Positions 3,749-41,333 of a stretch of DNA of 41,333 bases are shown here, in pieces (within the stretch, counting starts at the first letter, position 1; each line of letters opens with the position of its first letter). The notes beneath the pieces were generated by a model. That model had not been told where the DNA came from. It saw only the letters and a list, made by a program, of their open reading frames with translations, and did not search any database. The position numbers were made by a program, and so were the translations under genes. This DNA comes from Desulfatiglans anilini DSM 4660 (GTDB lineage: Bacteria > Desulfobacterota > DSM-4660 > Desulfatiglandales > Desulfatiglandaceae): assembly GCF_000422285.1 (NCBI RefSeq), contig NZ_AULM01000034.1, positions 1 to 41,333 of the forward strand, written 5' to 3'.

Positions 3749-3783
3749 GTTCTTTTTCGGGCTTCCCTTGAAGGAGGCGGGTG

Positions 3784-4006
3784 CCGGTTCCCTCACATCC
3801 CTTGGGTGCTCAGTCCTACCCCGGCAGGGCGGGTCCCGGTTTCTTCACATCCTTCGGGTGCTCAGTCCCACCGCTTTGTGCCGGGTTCCGCTTTGGACCA
3901 TAGCGAGGAAATCAACCGTCCGCGCGGAGGCTGCCTGCAGGCCGCCGCAAAAGACGCGCAGATGGACGCCGAGGTTGATCCCGAAGACCGTTTCCGGATA
4001 AAAACA
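3784..4006 (+). repeat. Dispersed foldback element, copy A (degenerate, two hairpin modules)
   Basis: Copy A is related to the elements at 23540, 30172 and 40882. It contains two tandem copies of the roughly 52-bp double-hairpin module (about 3788-3840 and 3841-3893), recognised by the shared GGGTGCTCAGTCC string. These are followed by the conserved large hairpin around GCCTGCAGGC (about 3933) and a right end reading CGTTTCCGGAT. The left terminal inverted repeat is not recognisable, so this is a decayed copy. It ends about 60 bp before the ATPase start. Confidence 0.75.
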
Positions 4007-4067: not shown

Positions 4068-6821
4068 ATGAACCGGAGACTGCCGAGAGAGGCGATGAAA
4101 AACCATACAGACTACGGCCAGGCGCCTTATCACGCTCGGAGCATCGAACAGGTCCAAAAGGATTTGAAGGTCGACCTTGACCAGGGGTTGTCTCCCCGTC
4201 AGGTGCGGGAACGCCTGGGGCGGCACGGGCCGAACATTCTGCGGGAGACGCAAAGGCGGAGCGTTTGGGAAATCCTGGCACTACAGTTCAAAAGCATGGT
4301 CATCATCGTGCTGCTGATCGCGGATGCCGTGGCTTTTGCCTTTCAGCACTGGGCCGAGGGCATCGCCATTGCCGCCGTGCTGCTGGTGAATGCGGGCATT
4401 GGATTTTTAACCGAGTGGAAGGCCGTGCGCTCCATGGAAGCCCTGCAGAAAATGAGCGGAGACAGGATCCGGGTTCGCCGCGGGGGGCAGGAAACGGAAA
4501 TCGATACGGCCGAACTGGTGCCCGGTGATGTGGTGGTGCTCGAGAGCGGGGACCTGGCTCCTGCCGATGTCCGGCTGTTCGAATCCAACAACCTGCGCGT
4601 GAACGAATCCTCCCTCACCGGGGAAAGCGTGCCGGTCTACAAGCTCACGGGGCCGGTGGAACCCGATGCTGTTCTGGCCGAGCGAACCTGCATGCTTTAC
4701 CGGGGGACCACGGTCACGGAAGGGTCGGGACAAGGCGTAGTGGTCGGCACCGGGATGCGGACCGAACTCGGGCGTATCTCCGAGATGGCTGAAAGTGCAG
4801 AAAAGGCAGCCACGCCCTTGCAGAAAAGGCTCGATCAACTGGGACGTCGTCTGGCCTGGATAACGATCAGCATCGCCGTGCTAATCGCCGCCGTCGGATT
4901 ACTGGTGGGCCGTGATCCACAAAAAATGATCGAGACCGCGATTGCTTTGGGGGTGGCTGCCATTCCGGAAGGGCTGCCCATCGTGGCCACCATTGCCCTG
5001 GCGCGCGGCATGCACCTGATGGCCCGTCGCAACGCGCTGATCAACAAGCTGCCGGCCGTGGAAACGTTGGGGGCCACGCGGGTGATTTTCACGGACAAAA
5101 CCGGAACCTTGACCGAGAACCGGATGGCGCTGCGCCAGGTCAGCACGCCGGCCGGCGACTTTATCTTGGATGAGGAGAGCAAGCAGATTCATGCGCTCGA
5201 GAGCAGGGATGGGGCCAGTGCAGCGGATCATCCTCTGTTGCAGCGCCTTATCGAGATCGGGGTGTTGTGCAGCAATGCCTCAATGCGCGATGAGGACCAA
5301 GACCTGGAGCCGGAAGAGGAACAGGGCGATCCGACTGAAACGGCGCTGCTGAGGGCCGGCCTGTTCCTGCGCATGGAACGAGGCGCACTGTTGGCCCGAA
5401 AACCCGAAGTGCGCGAAGTGCCGTTCGATTCGGAGCAGATGATGATGGCGACCTTTCACGAAGTCGAAAACGGGTTCGAGGTGGCGGTGAAAGGCGCGCC
5501 GGGGAGGGTGCTGGAGGTTTGCACGCATGTGGCGCGGGCGGAGGGCGGGCCGGATGTGGAATTGGATCAGGAAACACGGGATCGATGGCTGGCGAAGTCC
5601 GAGAAGATGGCGTCAAAAGGATTCCGATTGCTTGCCGCCGCGGATAAAATCGTAGAGAGCGCCGAGGCCCGGCCCTACGAGAATTTGCGATTTATCGGCC
5701 TGTTCGGGCTTTTGGACCCCGCCCGCGGCGATGTGCGCGGCGCCATCGAGGAATGTCAGGCAGCCGGTATCAGGGTGGTCATGGTCACGGGCGATCAGCC
5801 GGCCACGGCAGCCGCCATTGCCAGACAAACCGGAGTGGTGGACAGCGAAGAGCCTTCGGTCATTCACGGGCGAGATCTGAAAGATCCGGACGAGATGACG
5901 GAAGAGGACCGGCGCAGGATTTTGGATACCCGCATTTTCGCCCGGGTCAGCCCGGAACAGAAACTCCATCTCATCAAGTTGATGCAGGAGGAGGGGTTGA
6001 CCGTAGCGATGACCGGAGACGGGGTCAACGATGCTCCGGCTTTGAAAAAGGCGGATATCGGGGTGGCCATGGGGCGGCGCGGAACGGATGCCGCGCGCCA
6101 GGCAGCCGATATGGTGTTGCTGGACGACGCGTTCGGCTCTATTGTATCGGCCGTGCGATACGGTCGCATTATTTTTGCAAATATCCGCAAGTCTGTAATG
6201 TTTATGATCTGCACAAATGTGGCCGAGGTGCTTGCTGTGGTGGCGGCGGCTGTCATCGGCGGGTTTTACGATTTTCCGATTCCCCTGCTGCCATTGCAAA
6301 TTCTGTATCTGAACGTTGTCACCGATGTCTTCCCGGCCCTGGCGCTGGGCATGGGGCAGGGGGAACCGGATATCATGCAGAACAAGCCCCGGCCGCGCAG
6401 CGAGCCGGTGCTGACGGGCGACTATTGGGGCGCCATAGGCGGGTGGGCGGTGCTGATATCGGCCTGCGTGCTTGGGGGCCTTGCCGCGGCTTTGTACCTT
6501 CTGGGGCTCGACCCGCACCAGGCCGTGACCGTTTCGTTCCTGACCCTGGCGTTCGGGAAGTTGTGGTTCGTTTACAACCTTCGCAACCCGGGGTCGCGGA
6601 TGTTCAGCAATGATGTGGTGCGCAATCCCTATGTGGCGGGATCGATCCTGCTGTGTATCGGGCTTCTGCTGGCTGCGGTATACGTTCCGGTGCTTTCCGG
6701 CCTGCTGCAGACCCGGGACCCGGGGGTGCAAGGCTGGCTGCTGTTGTTGGGCGTGAGCTTGATCCCGTTTGTGTGGGGTCAAACCATGCGCGTCGTGCAG
6801 GCGAAGCGCAGCAAGCGGTAG
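4068..6821 (+). CDS. P-type cation-transporting ATPase, SERCA-like (probable Ca2+ pump)
   Basis: This is a 917-residue integral membrane pump that uses ATP, via an aspartyl-phosphate, to move a cation across the inner membrane. Features in order: cation-ATPase N-terminal domain (about 24-95), actuator motif TGES (184-187), M4 motif PEGLP (300-304), phosphorylation motif DKTGTLT with Asp343, nucleotide-binding KGAPGRVLEVC, MVTGDQPATA, and hinge motif TGDGVNDAP. Ca2+-coordinating positions known from SERCA are matched: Glu301 in M4, Asn and Glu in NVAEV of M5, and Asn, Thr and Asp in NVVTD of M6. P2-type calcium transport is therefore the best call; Mn2+ or another divalent ion is possible. The start is ambiguous: ATG 4068, or ATG 4095 (10th codon), which has GAGAGG just upstream. 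The gene stands alone. Confidence 0.9.
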   Translation: MNRRLPREAMKNHTDYGQAPYHARSIEQVQKDLKVDLDQGLSPRQVRERLGRHGPNILRETQRRSVWEILALQFKSMVIIVLLIADAVAFAFQHWAEGIAIAAVLLVNAGIGFLTEWKAVRSMEALQKMSGDRIRVRRGGQETEIDTAELVPGDVVVLESGDLAPADVRLFESNNLRVNESSLTGESVPVYKLTGPVEPDAVLAERTCMLYRGTTVTEGSGQGVVVGTGMRTELGRISEMAESAEKAATPLQKRLDQLGRRLAWITISIAVLIAAVGLLVGRDPQKMIETAIALGVAAIPEGLPIVATIALARGMHLMARRNALINKLPAVETLGATRVIFTDKTGTLTENRMALRQVSTPAGDFILDEESKQIHALESRDGASAADHPLLQRLIEIGVLCSNASMRDEDQDLEPEEEQGDPTETALLRAGLFLRMERGALLARKPEVREVPFDSEQMMMATFHEVENGFEVAVKGAPGRVLEVCTHVARAEGGPDVELDQETRDRWLAKSEKMASKGFRLLAAADKIVESAEARPYENLRFIGLFGLLDPARGDVRGAIEECQAAGIRVVMVTGDQPATAAAIARQTGVVDSEEPSVIHGRDLKDPDEMTEEDRRRILDTRIFARVSPEQKLHLIKLMQEEGLTVAMTGDGVNDAPALKKADIGVAMGRRGTDAARQAADMVLLDDAFGSIVSAVRYGRIIFANIRKSVMFMICTNVAEVLAVVAAAVIGGFYDFPIPLLPLQILYLNVVTDVFPALALGMGQGEPDIMQNKPRPRSEPVLTGDYWGAIGGWAVLISACVLGGLAAALYLLGLDPHQAVTVSFLTLAFGKLWFVYNLRNPGSRMFSNDVVRNPYVAGSILLCIGLLLAAVYVPVLSGLLQTRDPGVQGWLLLLGVSLIPFVWGQTMRVVQAKRSKR

Positions 6822-21549: not shown

Positions 21550-22099
21550 CGATGATGCCCCGTTCGTGTTGTTGGTTGTCGTGGTTTCAGGGCGGTGGAA
21601 GGCAGACGCTCTGCCCCGTACCGCCCAGGGCGGCGTTTTCCGCTCGCGCGCGGCCCCCGGGCTTCGGCGTTGCCTGTCCCCATGCTGCCGACCGCACGCG
21701 ACCTGCGAGCCATGGGCTTTGCATGGGAGTCTGCGCGTCAAGGATCATATCCGGAGCGAACGTCGTCGCGACGGATGCGCGCTAAGGGATCGGAAACCGG
21801 GTCCTACCGGGAAATCATTTCCGGATGGATATTAACTAGCGGACATAAACGGCTGATGCAACCTAATTTCTCGCTTCAAGGGAAGAACCTTCGATGTGCA
21901 GGGGGCGCCGGAAGGATTCCATGCAGGCACGCCGCAGATCTTCGATGCCCGGGAGCATGCACCGCGCCGGGATTCTCAGACTCCCCTTGCAGGATGAGCG
22001 CCGGCGTTGTACCTTGGTCGGCGGACAGGACCCTTTGCAGAGGGGCTTTTTTCCATCGATGCCGCCTTTGCGTCGTCCGAGAAAGGAAACAATCGACTG
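21550..22099. other. Intergenic region between divergent malQ and the DUF89 gene
   Basis: I see no reliable gene. It contains a 10-bp palindrome CGTCGCGACG (about 21764-21773) and the foldback-element fragment at 21786-21832. An AT-richer patch follows (21826-21880), a reasonable place for promoters. Candidate ORFs crossing it are GC-driven artefacts. Confidence 0.45.
21786..21832 (-). repeat. Fragment of the dispersed foldback element (copy E)
   Basis: Read on the minus strand, it matches the roughly 35-bp 5-prime extension of copies C and D (CCATCCGGAAATGATTTCCC, then CGGTAGGACCC). It continues into the first bases of the core (GTTTCCGATCC) before similarity stops. It is either a truncated copy or a solitary module. 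Confidence 0.65.
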
Positions 22100-23539: not shown

Positions 23540-23715
23540 GTTTCCATCGGGAAATGGTCCTTTTTGCCAATCTCGCGGTTCATCTGCGTGTTTGCTTGTG
23601 GGGCGACCGTCAGGGCGCCTCCGCGCAAACGTTGGATTTCCTGGATATTGGCGAAAAATCCTCATTTCCGCATTGGAAACGGGGTTGTAACGAGAAAACG
23701 TTTCCGGATGACTAC
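23540..23715 (-). repeat. Dispersed foldback element, copy B (short form, no hairpin module)
   Basis: The core at 23540-23680 (141 bp) has inverted ends GTTTCCATCGGGAAATG and CATTTCCGCATTGGAAAC. It folds back through GCCAAT/ATTGGC and GTTTGC/GCAAAC arms to a central stem GGCGACC/GGGCGCC. Relative to copies C and D it lacks the roughly 47-bp double-hairpin module between the T-run and the CCAAT arm. The 35-bp extension is present at 23681-23715. The orientation is opposite to A, C and D. Confidence 0.8.
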
Positions 23716-30171: not shown

Positions 30172-30399
30172 GATCCCATCCGGGAATGATTTTCCGGTAG
30201 AGCCCGGTTTCCAATCCGGAAATGAGGATTTTTCTTTACACGCTGCGCGTGCTCAGTCCCACCGCTTCGCGGCGGGTCCCGGTTTAGCCAATATCAGGGA
30301 AATCAAGCGTTTGCGCGGAGGCGACCTGCAGGTCGCCGCACAAGCAAACGTGCAGATCGACGCCGAGATTGGCCAAAAAGACCATTTCCGGATGGAAAC
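30172..30399 (+). repeat. Dispersed foldback element, copy C
   Basis: The core spans 30207-30399, with ends GTTTCCAATCCGGAAATG and CATTTCCGGATGGAAAC (one base shorter than perfect). The 35-bp extension is at 30172-30206. There is one internal double-hairpin module, whose first stem is CACGC-TGC-GCGTG where copy D has CACCC-TTC-GGGTG, so both sides of a pair have changed. The central palindrome is GGCGACCTGCAGGTCGCC (30319-30336). Confidence 0.85.
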
Positions 30400-40650: not shown

Positions 40651-40881
40651 CTGCGGACCTTCGGCGCAGCCCGCTTCCGCATCGAAGATAGCGTGCAGAA
40701 CAAGGGTCGGAGGGCACAGCCTCATTCAAAGGAAGGCGCCTGCCGTTCTCCGTACCCCATCCAGTAGCAGAGAAGCGGCGCAGGGACCCTCATGATACGC
40801 CCGGGGATTCCGGGGTCTTCTTGCAGGCGCGGAAATCGCTCACGGATTTGGCGAGGGCATTTCCACGGGGGAGTCTACTTG

Positions 40882-41110
40882 GTTTCCATCCGGAAATGAT
40901 TTCCCGGTAGAACCCAGTTTCCAATCCGGAAATGAGAATTTTTCTTCACACCCTTCGGGTGCTCAGTCCCACCGCTTCGCGGCGGGTCCCGGTTTGGTCA
41001 ATATCAAGGAAATCAAGCGTTTGCGCGGAGGCGACCTGCAGGTCGCCGCACAAGCAAACGTGCAGATTGACGCCGAGATTGGCCAAAAAGACCATTTCCG
41101 GATTGGAAAC
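40882..41110 (+). repeat. Dispersed foldback element, copy D (best preserved)
   Basis: The core at 40917-41110 (194 bp) is bounded by perfect 18-bp inverted repeats GTTTCCAATCCGGAAATG and CATTTCCGGATTGGAAAC. The 35-bp extension is at 40882-40916. Inside are the hairpins CACCC-TTC-GGGTG and CCGC-TTC-GCGG, the arm TTTGGTCAAT with ATTGGCCAAA, the arm CGTTTGC with GCAAACG, and the 18-bp palindrome GGCGACCTGCAGGTCGCC (41029-41046). It lies between convergent genes and its last base is shared with the downstream stop codon. Confidence 0.88.
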
Positions 41111-41333
41111 TACTTGAGTTCGGTGATCCGGTACAGGTCCAGGCGGCGGGTCTGAAGGTTGCGGACGCTGCCCTGGTAGCGCACCTCTTTGAGGAGATCG
41201 AGGTCCAGGTCGGCCAGAAGGGTCATCTCCGTATTGGGCGTCGCCTCGGCGGCGATGGCGTCGTGGGGGAAGGCGAAATCCGACGGCGTGAAGATGGCGG
41301 TCTGGGCGTATTGGATGTCCATGTTTTCCACCT
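41110..41333 (-). CDS. Carbon-nitrogen hydrolase (nitrilase family), C-terminal fragment
   Basis: Only the last 73 residues lie in the window; the gene continues past position 41333. The segment NMDIQYAQTAIFTPSDFAFPHDAIAAEATPNTEM followed by DLDLDLLKEVRYQGSVRNLQTRRLDLYRI is typical of the C-terminus of nitrilase-superfamily amidohydrolases, in particular the group often fused to an N-terminal GNAT acetyltransferase. The catalytic Glu-Lys-Cys residues are outside the window, so activity cannot be assessed. The stop codon TAG occupies 41110-41112 and its last base belongs to the terminal repeat of element D. Confidence 0.8.
   Translation of the reverse strand, partial: VENMDIQYAQTAIFTPSDFAFPHDAIAAEATPNTEMTLLADLDLDLLKEVRYQGSVRNLQTRRLDLYRITELK

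Follow-up and report, generated by a model that had tools for sequence, protein, structure and literature searches.

The modular repeat described here most likely combines two nested mobile layers (probability roughly 0.6). The outer layer would be a palindromic MITE that shares its ends with an ISNCY-family insertion sequence (IS) and is moved in trans by the DDE transposase of that IS, with 6-bp duplications. The inner layer would be a 52-60 bp double-hairpin module, a non-autonomous mobile element of its own that inserts directly 3' of TTC without any other target duplication. Once resident, a module would offer its TTTC end as a fresh target, behind which further modules could stack head to tail. 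Such stacking would produce 0, 1, 2 or 3 modules at one fixed point, and the MITE would then spread them. Module insertion might proceed by a single-strand reaction (HUH-like, IS200/IS605- or IS91-like). Together, the layers would form a parasite of two storeys, with the module riding on the MITE and the MITE on the insertion sequence, found across many Desulfobacterota genera.

Repeat copies in the window

The window, i.e. the whole stretch of DNA analysed (41,333 nucleotides), is contig C32 of the genome G000, a 4.67-Mb draft. The repeat has three parts, a left arm (L), the module (M) and a right arm (R), and occurs at high copy number. Four copies (A to D), all between long open frames, and a solo arm remnant were located and compared with the complete genome G001 of the same genus.

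about 3770..3791, + strand: copy A, remnant (3' end) of a third, upstream module; GGAGGCGGGTGCCGGTTCCC matches the module tail GGCGGGTCCCGGTTTC, and the orthologous copy in G001 reads GGCGGGTCCCGGTTCCC
3792..3843, + strand: copy A, module 1 (52 bp, double hairpin); family register and nhmmer M match
3844..3895, + strand: copy A, module 2 (52 bp); family register and nhmmer M match
3896..4003, + strand: copy A, right arm R; nhmmer R match to 3999, orthologous MMR in G001
21787..21832, - strand: solo left-arm remnant; nhmmer L match, also present at the orthologous G001 site (synteny)
23540..23715, - strand: copy B, MITE with zero modules (LR); nhmmer, orthologous LR in G001
30172..30399, + strand: copy C, MITE with one module (LMR); nhmmer, orthologous G001 copy has none
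30235..30286, + strand: copy C module, hairpin-1 allele CACGC..GCGTG; nhmmer, clean 52-bp difference to G001
40876..40881, + strand: copy D, left target-site duplication TACTTG; read directly, genome-wide duplication signal at the same offset
40882..41110, + strand: copy D, MITE with one module (LMR), ends GTTTCC...GGAAAC; nhmmer, orthologous LMR in G001
40945..40996, + strand: copy D module TTCACACCCTTCGGGTGCTCAGTCCCACCGCTTCGCGGCGGGTCCCGGTTTG; family register, nhmmer and fold
41111..41116, + strand: copy D, right target-site duplication TACTTG; read directly

The original prediction had copy B without the inner unit, copies C and D with one and copy A with two in tandem, and the annotation agrees for all four. 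The unit length of about 47 bp given there has to be replaced by a period of 52 bp. The proposed placement of modules at one fixed point behind a T-run holds genome-wide in the form of constant junctions, but does not extend to copy A, which has the architecture (partial M)MMR without any left arm, so that its modules lack the canonical T-run. In G001, synteny places the same architecture at copies A (MMR), B (LR) and D (LMR), whereas copy C has a module here (LMR) and lacks it in G001 (LR). A 917-codon open frame (4068-6821) follows immediately after copy A on its downstream side and by eye looks like a P-type cation ATPase.

Module number across the genome

The module core GGTGCTCAGTCC, allowing at most one mismatch, occurs 141 times genome-wide compared with 9 times for a reversed control pattern. 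The left-arm pattern was found 217 times (reversed control, 1) and the right-arm pattern 173 times (reversed control, 3). Iterated HMMs for L, M and R, applied to about 296 kb of sampled genome pieces, matched at least 178 L, at least 152 M and at least 185 R. Among the sampled copies, there were 0 modules between L and R in 62, 1 in 51, 2 in 20 and 3 in 3, proportions that are indicative only, the copies having been seeded by each part from among the matches listed. The offsets at the junctions are nearly constant, with 8 for L-R (55/62), 4 for L-M (73/91), 1 for M-M (39/41, equal to a period of 52) and 5 for M-R (72/89). One module hence adds exactly 52 bp (4+51+5 = 8+52). Collected and tabulated in this way, copies vary in module number with clean boundaries throughout the genome, and random deletions at many positions, named beforehand as the outcome speaking against a module, were not seen.

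Many G000 contigs start or stop in or near an element copy (C1, C6, C7, C10, C11, C12, C21, C22, C24, C31, C36, C45 and C48). The element therefore probably broke the draft assembly, and its counts are probably underestimates. In C48 (L173:1-246), the left 36-bp MITE end repeat is present three times in tandem; the left part is therefore also a multiplying unit.

The outer element and its probable partner insertion sequence

The MITE is palindromic with a core of about 140 bp, and most copies carry an extra 36-bp end repeat, although short 140-bp forms without the extra left repeat exist. It has perfect ends (GTTTCCATCCGGAAATG / CATTTCCGGATGGAAAC) and a 6-bp target duplication with the consensus TANNTA across 105 elements. 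When all offsets between the left and right flanks of these 105 elements were scanned, the duplication signal fell on one diagonal (sum Z 22.7, versus 10.0 for the next, the neighbouring offset). For the copy at C1:246074, the empty site in G001 reads TAAATC/TGAATC, confirming the duplication with one mismatch allowed.

A first search for a partner IS at 20 loci with orphan ends returned short MITE forms only. Searching G000 and G001 with PF01609 then recovered three IS copies of 1693-1698 bp in G001 that have the ends of the MITE (L363:408-2100, L360:411-2108 and L364:1277-2974; 1.69 kb, 465-codon open frame). They are 92-95% alike, and one has a shortened frame. Their ends, GTTTCCATCCGGAAAA and GTTTCCATCCGGAAATAGGGTTTTT, equal the terminal inverted repeats of the MITE, GTTTCCATCCGGAAATGAGGATTTTT. 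The copy at L363 is flanked by the duplication TAAATA, 6 bp as in the MITE, and a matching 6-bp duplication was absent at the other two of the three copies in G001. The transposase belongs to the ISNCY family (NF033593, 438.9 bits against a cut-off of 325, in G001) and was not seen in the G000 pieces examined, which cover a fraction of that genome. The MITE ends, the target duplication, the empty site and the IS with the same ends are all direct observations. Because the IS has the same ends, one TAAATA duplication and an ISNCY transposase, the MITE is most simply read as a non-autonomous relative of this ISNCY-family IS, and we infer that the DDE transposase of the IS moves it.

The module as a separate, nested unit

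The module is a double hairpin of 52-60 bp with the order TTC, hairpin 1, CTCAGTCCC, hairpin 2 and GGTTTC, and the CTCAGTCCC linker is invariant across 19 diverse modules. It starts with TTC and normally ends with TTTC. A search for relatives with copy D returned module-only matches as well as modules on the opposite strand adjoining R. The exact core CTCAGTCCCACYNCTNNGNRGCGGG was found in 30 stretches among 84,980 species genomes, and the titles of all 30 name Desulfobacterota, Deltaproteobacteria or named orders of that group; the exact core had 0 matches in viral contigs. The own-genus core had no match in a first scan of genome contigs. A covariance model placed modules in 28 of the 85 genomes of the order and 22 of its 47 genera, counts that include weaker matches not individually checked.

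The contexts of the module are diverse. Within MITEs of its own type, the module occurs in the usual orientation, in the opposite orientation and inside the inner end repeat. Opposite-orientation modules adjoin R in G005, G026 and G057. Elsewhere, it sits in a different palindromic repeat starting with GACGGCTTCGTAAAAAGTCC and in a further repeat in G079, and at six loci (L278, L281, L291, L298, L214 and L206) it has no palindromic host. Modules show no strand bias between the two halves of the G001 chromosome.

At five sites, empty and filled versions of the host were compared, and in each the module lies exactly 3' of TTC with no other duplication (the caret marks the point of insertion).

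(i) own MITE: GGATTTTTC^GCCAATATC
(ii) same MITE, other strand: CCCTTGATTTC^CTTGATC; in this lineage the module 3' end is GGAAGC, not GGTTTC
(iii) own-family MITE: TTTCCAATTC^AGAAATGAG; filled and empty copies are both in G006 (L297, L188)
(iv) unrelated GACGGCTTCGTAAAAAGTCC host: empty CCTAAAGATTC^GCGCGCC; filled CCTAAAGATTC[TTCGCGC...CAGTTTC]GCGCGCC
(v) G079 repeat: ATTTC^A(A/G)(A/G)CAGTT; the module-free copy reads CATCATTTC^AGGCAGTT

The own-family MITE thus has three different insertion sites (i-iii), in different lineages. For the GACGGCTTCGTAAAAAGTCC host, the flanks of the filled copy were joined and searched in the same genomes, which yielded module-free copies 95-97% identical across the junction. 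In the G079 repeat, the TTC rule was predicted before the module-free copy was found, and the prediction held. The different hosts, positions and orientations and the exact TTC junctions are again seen directly.

A separate nested element, one of the two options offered by the original prediction, is strongly supported by the other hosts, the opposite orientation, the other positions in the MITE, the solitary occurrence in relatives and the exact TTC junctions. The question of whether the module ever occurs alone has a divided answer: it does in relatives, but in the own genome none fully free of arm remnants was found, which speaks against the reading. Because the module appears, single or in tandem stacks, in several unrelated families of small mobile repeats of sulfate-reducer-like bacteria, always directly behind TTC, the sequences suggest a tiny hitch-hiking mobile element riding on other mobile elements.

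How module arrays may arise

Adjacent modules within an element have a mean likeness of 0.795 compared with 0.810 for permuted pairs (27 pairs, 5000 permutations; P of permuted at least as high as observed, 0.98), and only one of the 27 pairs, in array C10:96079, consists of identical modules. Because neighbours resemble each other no more than randomly paired modules do, slippage is disfavoured as the main source of arrays, and recent slippage in place is not supported in that role. The suggestion that a functional RNA hairpin was amplified mainly by slippage is not supported by these same figures. Stacking behind the terminal TTTC of a module, or recombination between copies, fits the arrays better. 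Because the module ends in TTTC, stacking behind a resident module would give head-to-tail arrays of unlike modules.

Copy C provides the sole clean orthologous module difference to G001 (52 bp), and it does not indicate the direction of change. Speaking against module insertion, this difference could also stem from recombination or deletion between TTTC repeats. A second candidate at C7:34501 (LMMR versus LMR between G000 and G001) was dropped, its alignment not being clean. Other parts change between G000 and G001 as well (R versus RLRLR, RR versus R). The triple RLRLR array lies at L245:3139-3527 in G001, and the orthologous site G000:C7:32186 holds one R unit.

Recombination between copies may also change module number within the own genus. 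A wider role, in which gene conversion or unequal exchange among dispersed MITE copies shuffles modules without any present-day module mobility, seems unlikely to us as the whole account. It would explain the heterogeneous arrays and the number changes, and well over 100 similar copies per genome are on hand for it. In its favour, the alleles of hairpin 1 and hairpin 2 are found in every one of the four possible combinations. Module number is also nearly independent of arm ancestry (37 changes versus 40.1 +- 2.6 when shuffled), which fits stacking as well, although the arm tree rests on about 160 short columns and is poorly resolved, which weakens this point. Recombination could not, however, account for modules in hosts unrelated to the MITE or for those that are inverted.

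We likewise give little credence to the module being a mere internal part of the MITE, with replication slippage or unequal crossing-over at the 52-bp units and their TTTC borders changing its number in place. The exact 52-bp period, the TTTC at the borders, the identical neighbours in C10:96079 and the tandem gain of other parts (the R-containing arrays and the triple left unit in C48) all agree with such a process. Yet neighbouring modules are not especially alike, and slippage is unable to yield the same module in unrelated hosts or in other positions and orientations of the same host.

Folding and strand

The hairpin pairs covary, with mutual information of 0.83 and 0.58, the two highest values of all column pairs, and 17 double-changed cells compared with 5.6 when shuffled. 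The middle pair of both hairpins alternates between C-G and G-C. Such matched pairs could alternatively reflect template-switch correction of palindromes. Compared with shuffled sequences, the whole element is far more stably folded (z -7.3), and the lower strand has the stronger DNA fold (-12.7 versus -10.2 kcal/mol). A conserved A/C position in hairpin 2 can pair as a G-T wobble on the lower strand but is mismatched on the upper. In 105/115 and 96/109 hairpins the loop reads TNC on the upper strand, which corresponds to GNA on the lower, and its middle base varies. Very stable DNA mini-hairpins, GCGAAGC among them, have loops of this GNA class. The loops hence point to folding as single-stranded DNA, and a single-strand DNA reaction appears favoured because of the GNA loops, the TTC rule and the absence of a duplication.

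Copy number tuning the expression of neighbouring genes has been proposed for pneumococcal BOX elements, but a corresponding role of the module as a functional RNA (or terminator/attenuator-like) domain under selection is improbable here. Two stable hairpins with covarying pairs, the invariant CTCAGTCCC linker in 19 diverse modules and the fold of the whole element would suit it. Against it, no Rfam 15 family reached the gathering score in the window (CRISPR-DR13 alone appeared, at E 7.3), and the loops conform to the GNA rule known from DNA mini-hairpins, doing so on the lower strand, the one that folds better as DNA. G-T and A-C mismatches are about equal (22 versus 14, 29 versus 28) and favour neither RNA strand, and a copy number in the hundreds, spread over many lineages and several hosts, has the look of a mobile element.

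Candidate mobilising enzymes

The search for an enzyme that mobilises the module found none, which speaks against its being a mobile element of its own. REP/RAYT and IS200/IS605 enzymes were considered as movers of the module and rejected, Y1_Tnp being neither associated with modules nor near them. Counts of Y1_Tnp (PF01797) per genome did not differ with modules (3.9 versus 3.7, p=0.63), no module lay close to any of 30 Y1 loci, and G018, with 47 modules at 98% completeness, has no Y1_Tnp. By eye, no Watson-Crick complement to TTTC of the IS608 guide type was seen at the hairpin feet. An identity as an IS91-like Y2 derivative was likewise rejected, Y2_Tnp (PF04986) being absent from G000, G018, G049, G019 and G027 and not associated with the module.

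Relation to known systems

BOX and other small modular repeats were recognised decades ago; to our knowledge, there is no account of how inner modules are gained or multiply. By analogy of architecture, the elements described here work like BOX elements, their nearest known counterpart. In Streptococcus pneumoniae and S. suis, a BOX element has boxA and boxC on the outside and boxB, in varying copy number, between them; it carries terminal inverted repeats and target-site duplications, and in S. suis one boxB type occurs in two different outer frames (PMC3049150). Both are MITEs that have terminal inverted repeats and make target duplications, and both have fixed outer parts, an inner module present from zero to several times in tandem that folds largely on its own, and a high copy number (about 125 BOX elements per genome). 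The likeness is one of architecture. Streptococcus belongs to a phylum other than the Desulfobacterota hosts here. The partner IS also differs, being ISNCY here while ISSpn2 was proposed for BOX. In addition, the present module is found alone, in opposite orientation and in unrelated repeats, with an exact TTC junction and module-free counterparts. What appears to be new is this direct evidence, at the level of sequence, that an inner module inserts as a unit at a fixed junction, into more than one host and in either orientation. Because filled and empty hosts coexist in the same genomes with base-exact junctions, module insertion 3' of TTC into MITEs, and with it the gain of inner modules, becomes testable.

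REP and REPIN sequences with RAYT also form short imperfect hairpins at high copy number, assemble into tandem higher-order arrays and insert into one another (PMC3116915, PMC2817692). The module differs from them in its head-to-tail double hairpins with CTCAGTCCC, the lack of association with Y1_Tnp/RAYT and the precise TTC-dependent insertion into MITEs. With IS200/IS605 the module shares hairpins near both ends and an insertion point immediately 3' of a short fixed sequence, with no target duplication. Insertion of the IS200/IS605 type is a single-strand process involving hairpin ends. The module differs in that no transposase was found with it, no Y1_Tnp association was detected, no guide pairing was recognisable by eye, and it is far smaller than known members. 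The small dispersed repeats of cyanobacteria (named in PMC3116915) are very small mobile repeats nested in other repeats. These are alike in size class and nesting, but are set apart by description, the module being longer and doubly hairpinned. We tentatively raise the possibility, though we rather doubt it, that the module represents a new class of minimal (52-60 bp) non-autonomous DNA that would move as folded single-stranded DNA, insert 3' of TTC preferentially into palindromic MITEs and stack into BOX-like elements.

Module variants in other lineages

A related module type with GGCTCAGTCCCCACCCTTCGGGCGGGTCCCCGGTTTC forms head-to-tail arrays in G019 (L295, contig C72), and a single similar unit is present in G070 (L293). 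Weaker model matches number 60 in G070 and 42 in G078. At L216 and L235, modules in the same host and at the same junction exceed the usual length of the hairpin-1 region by about 30 bp.
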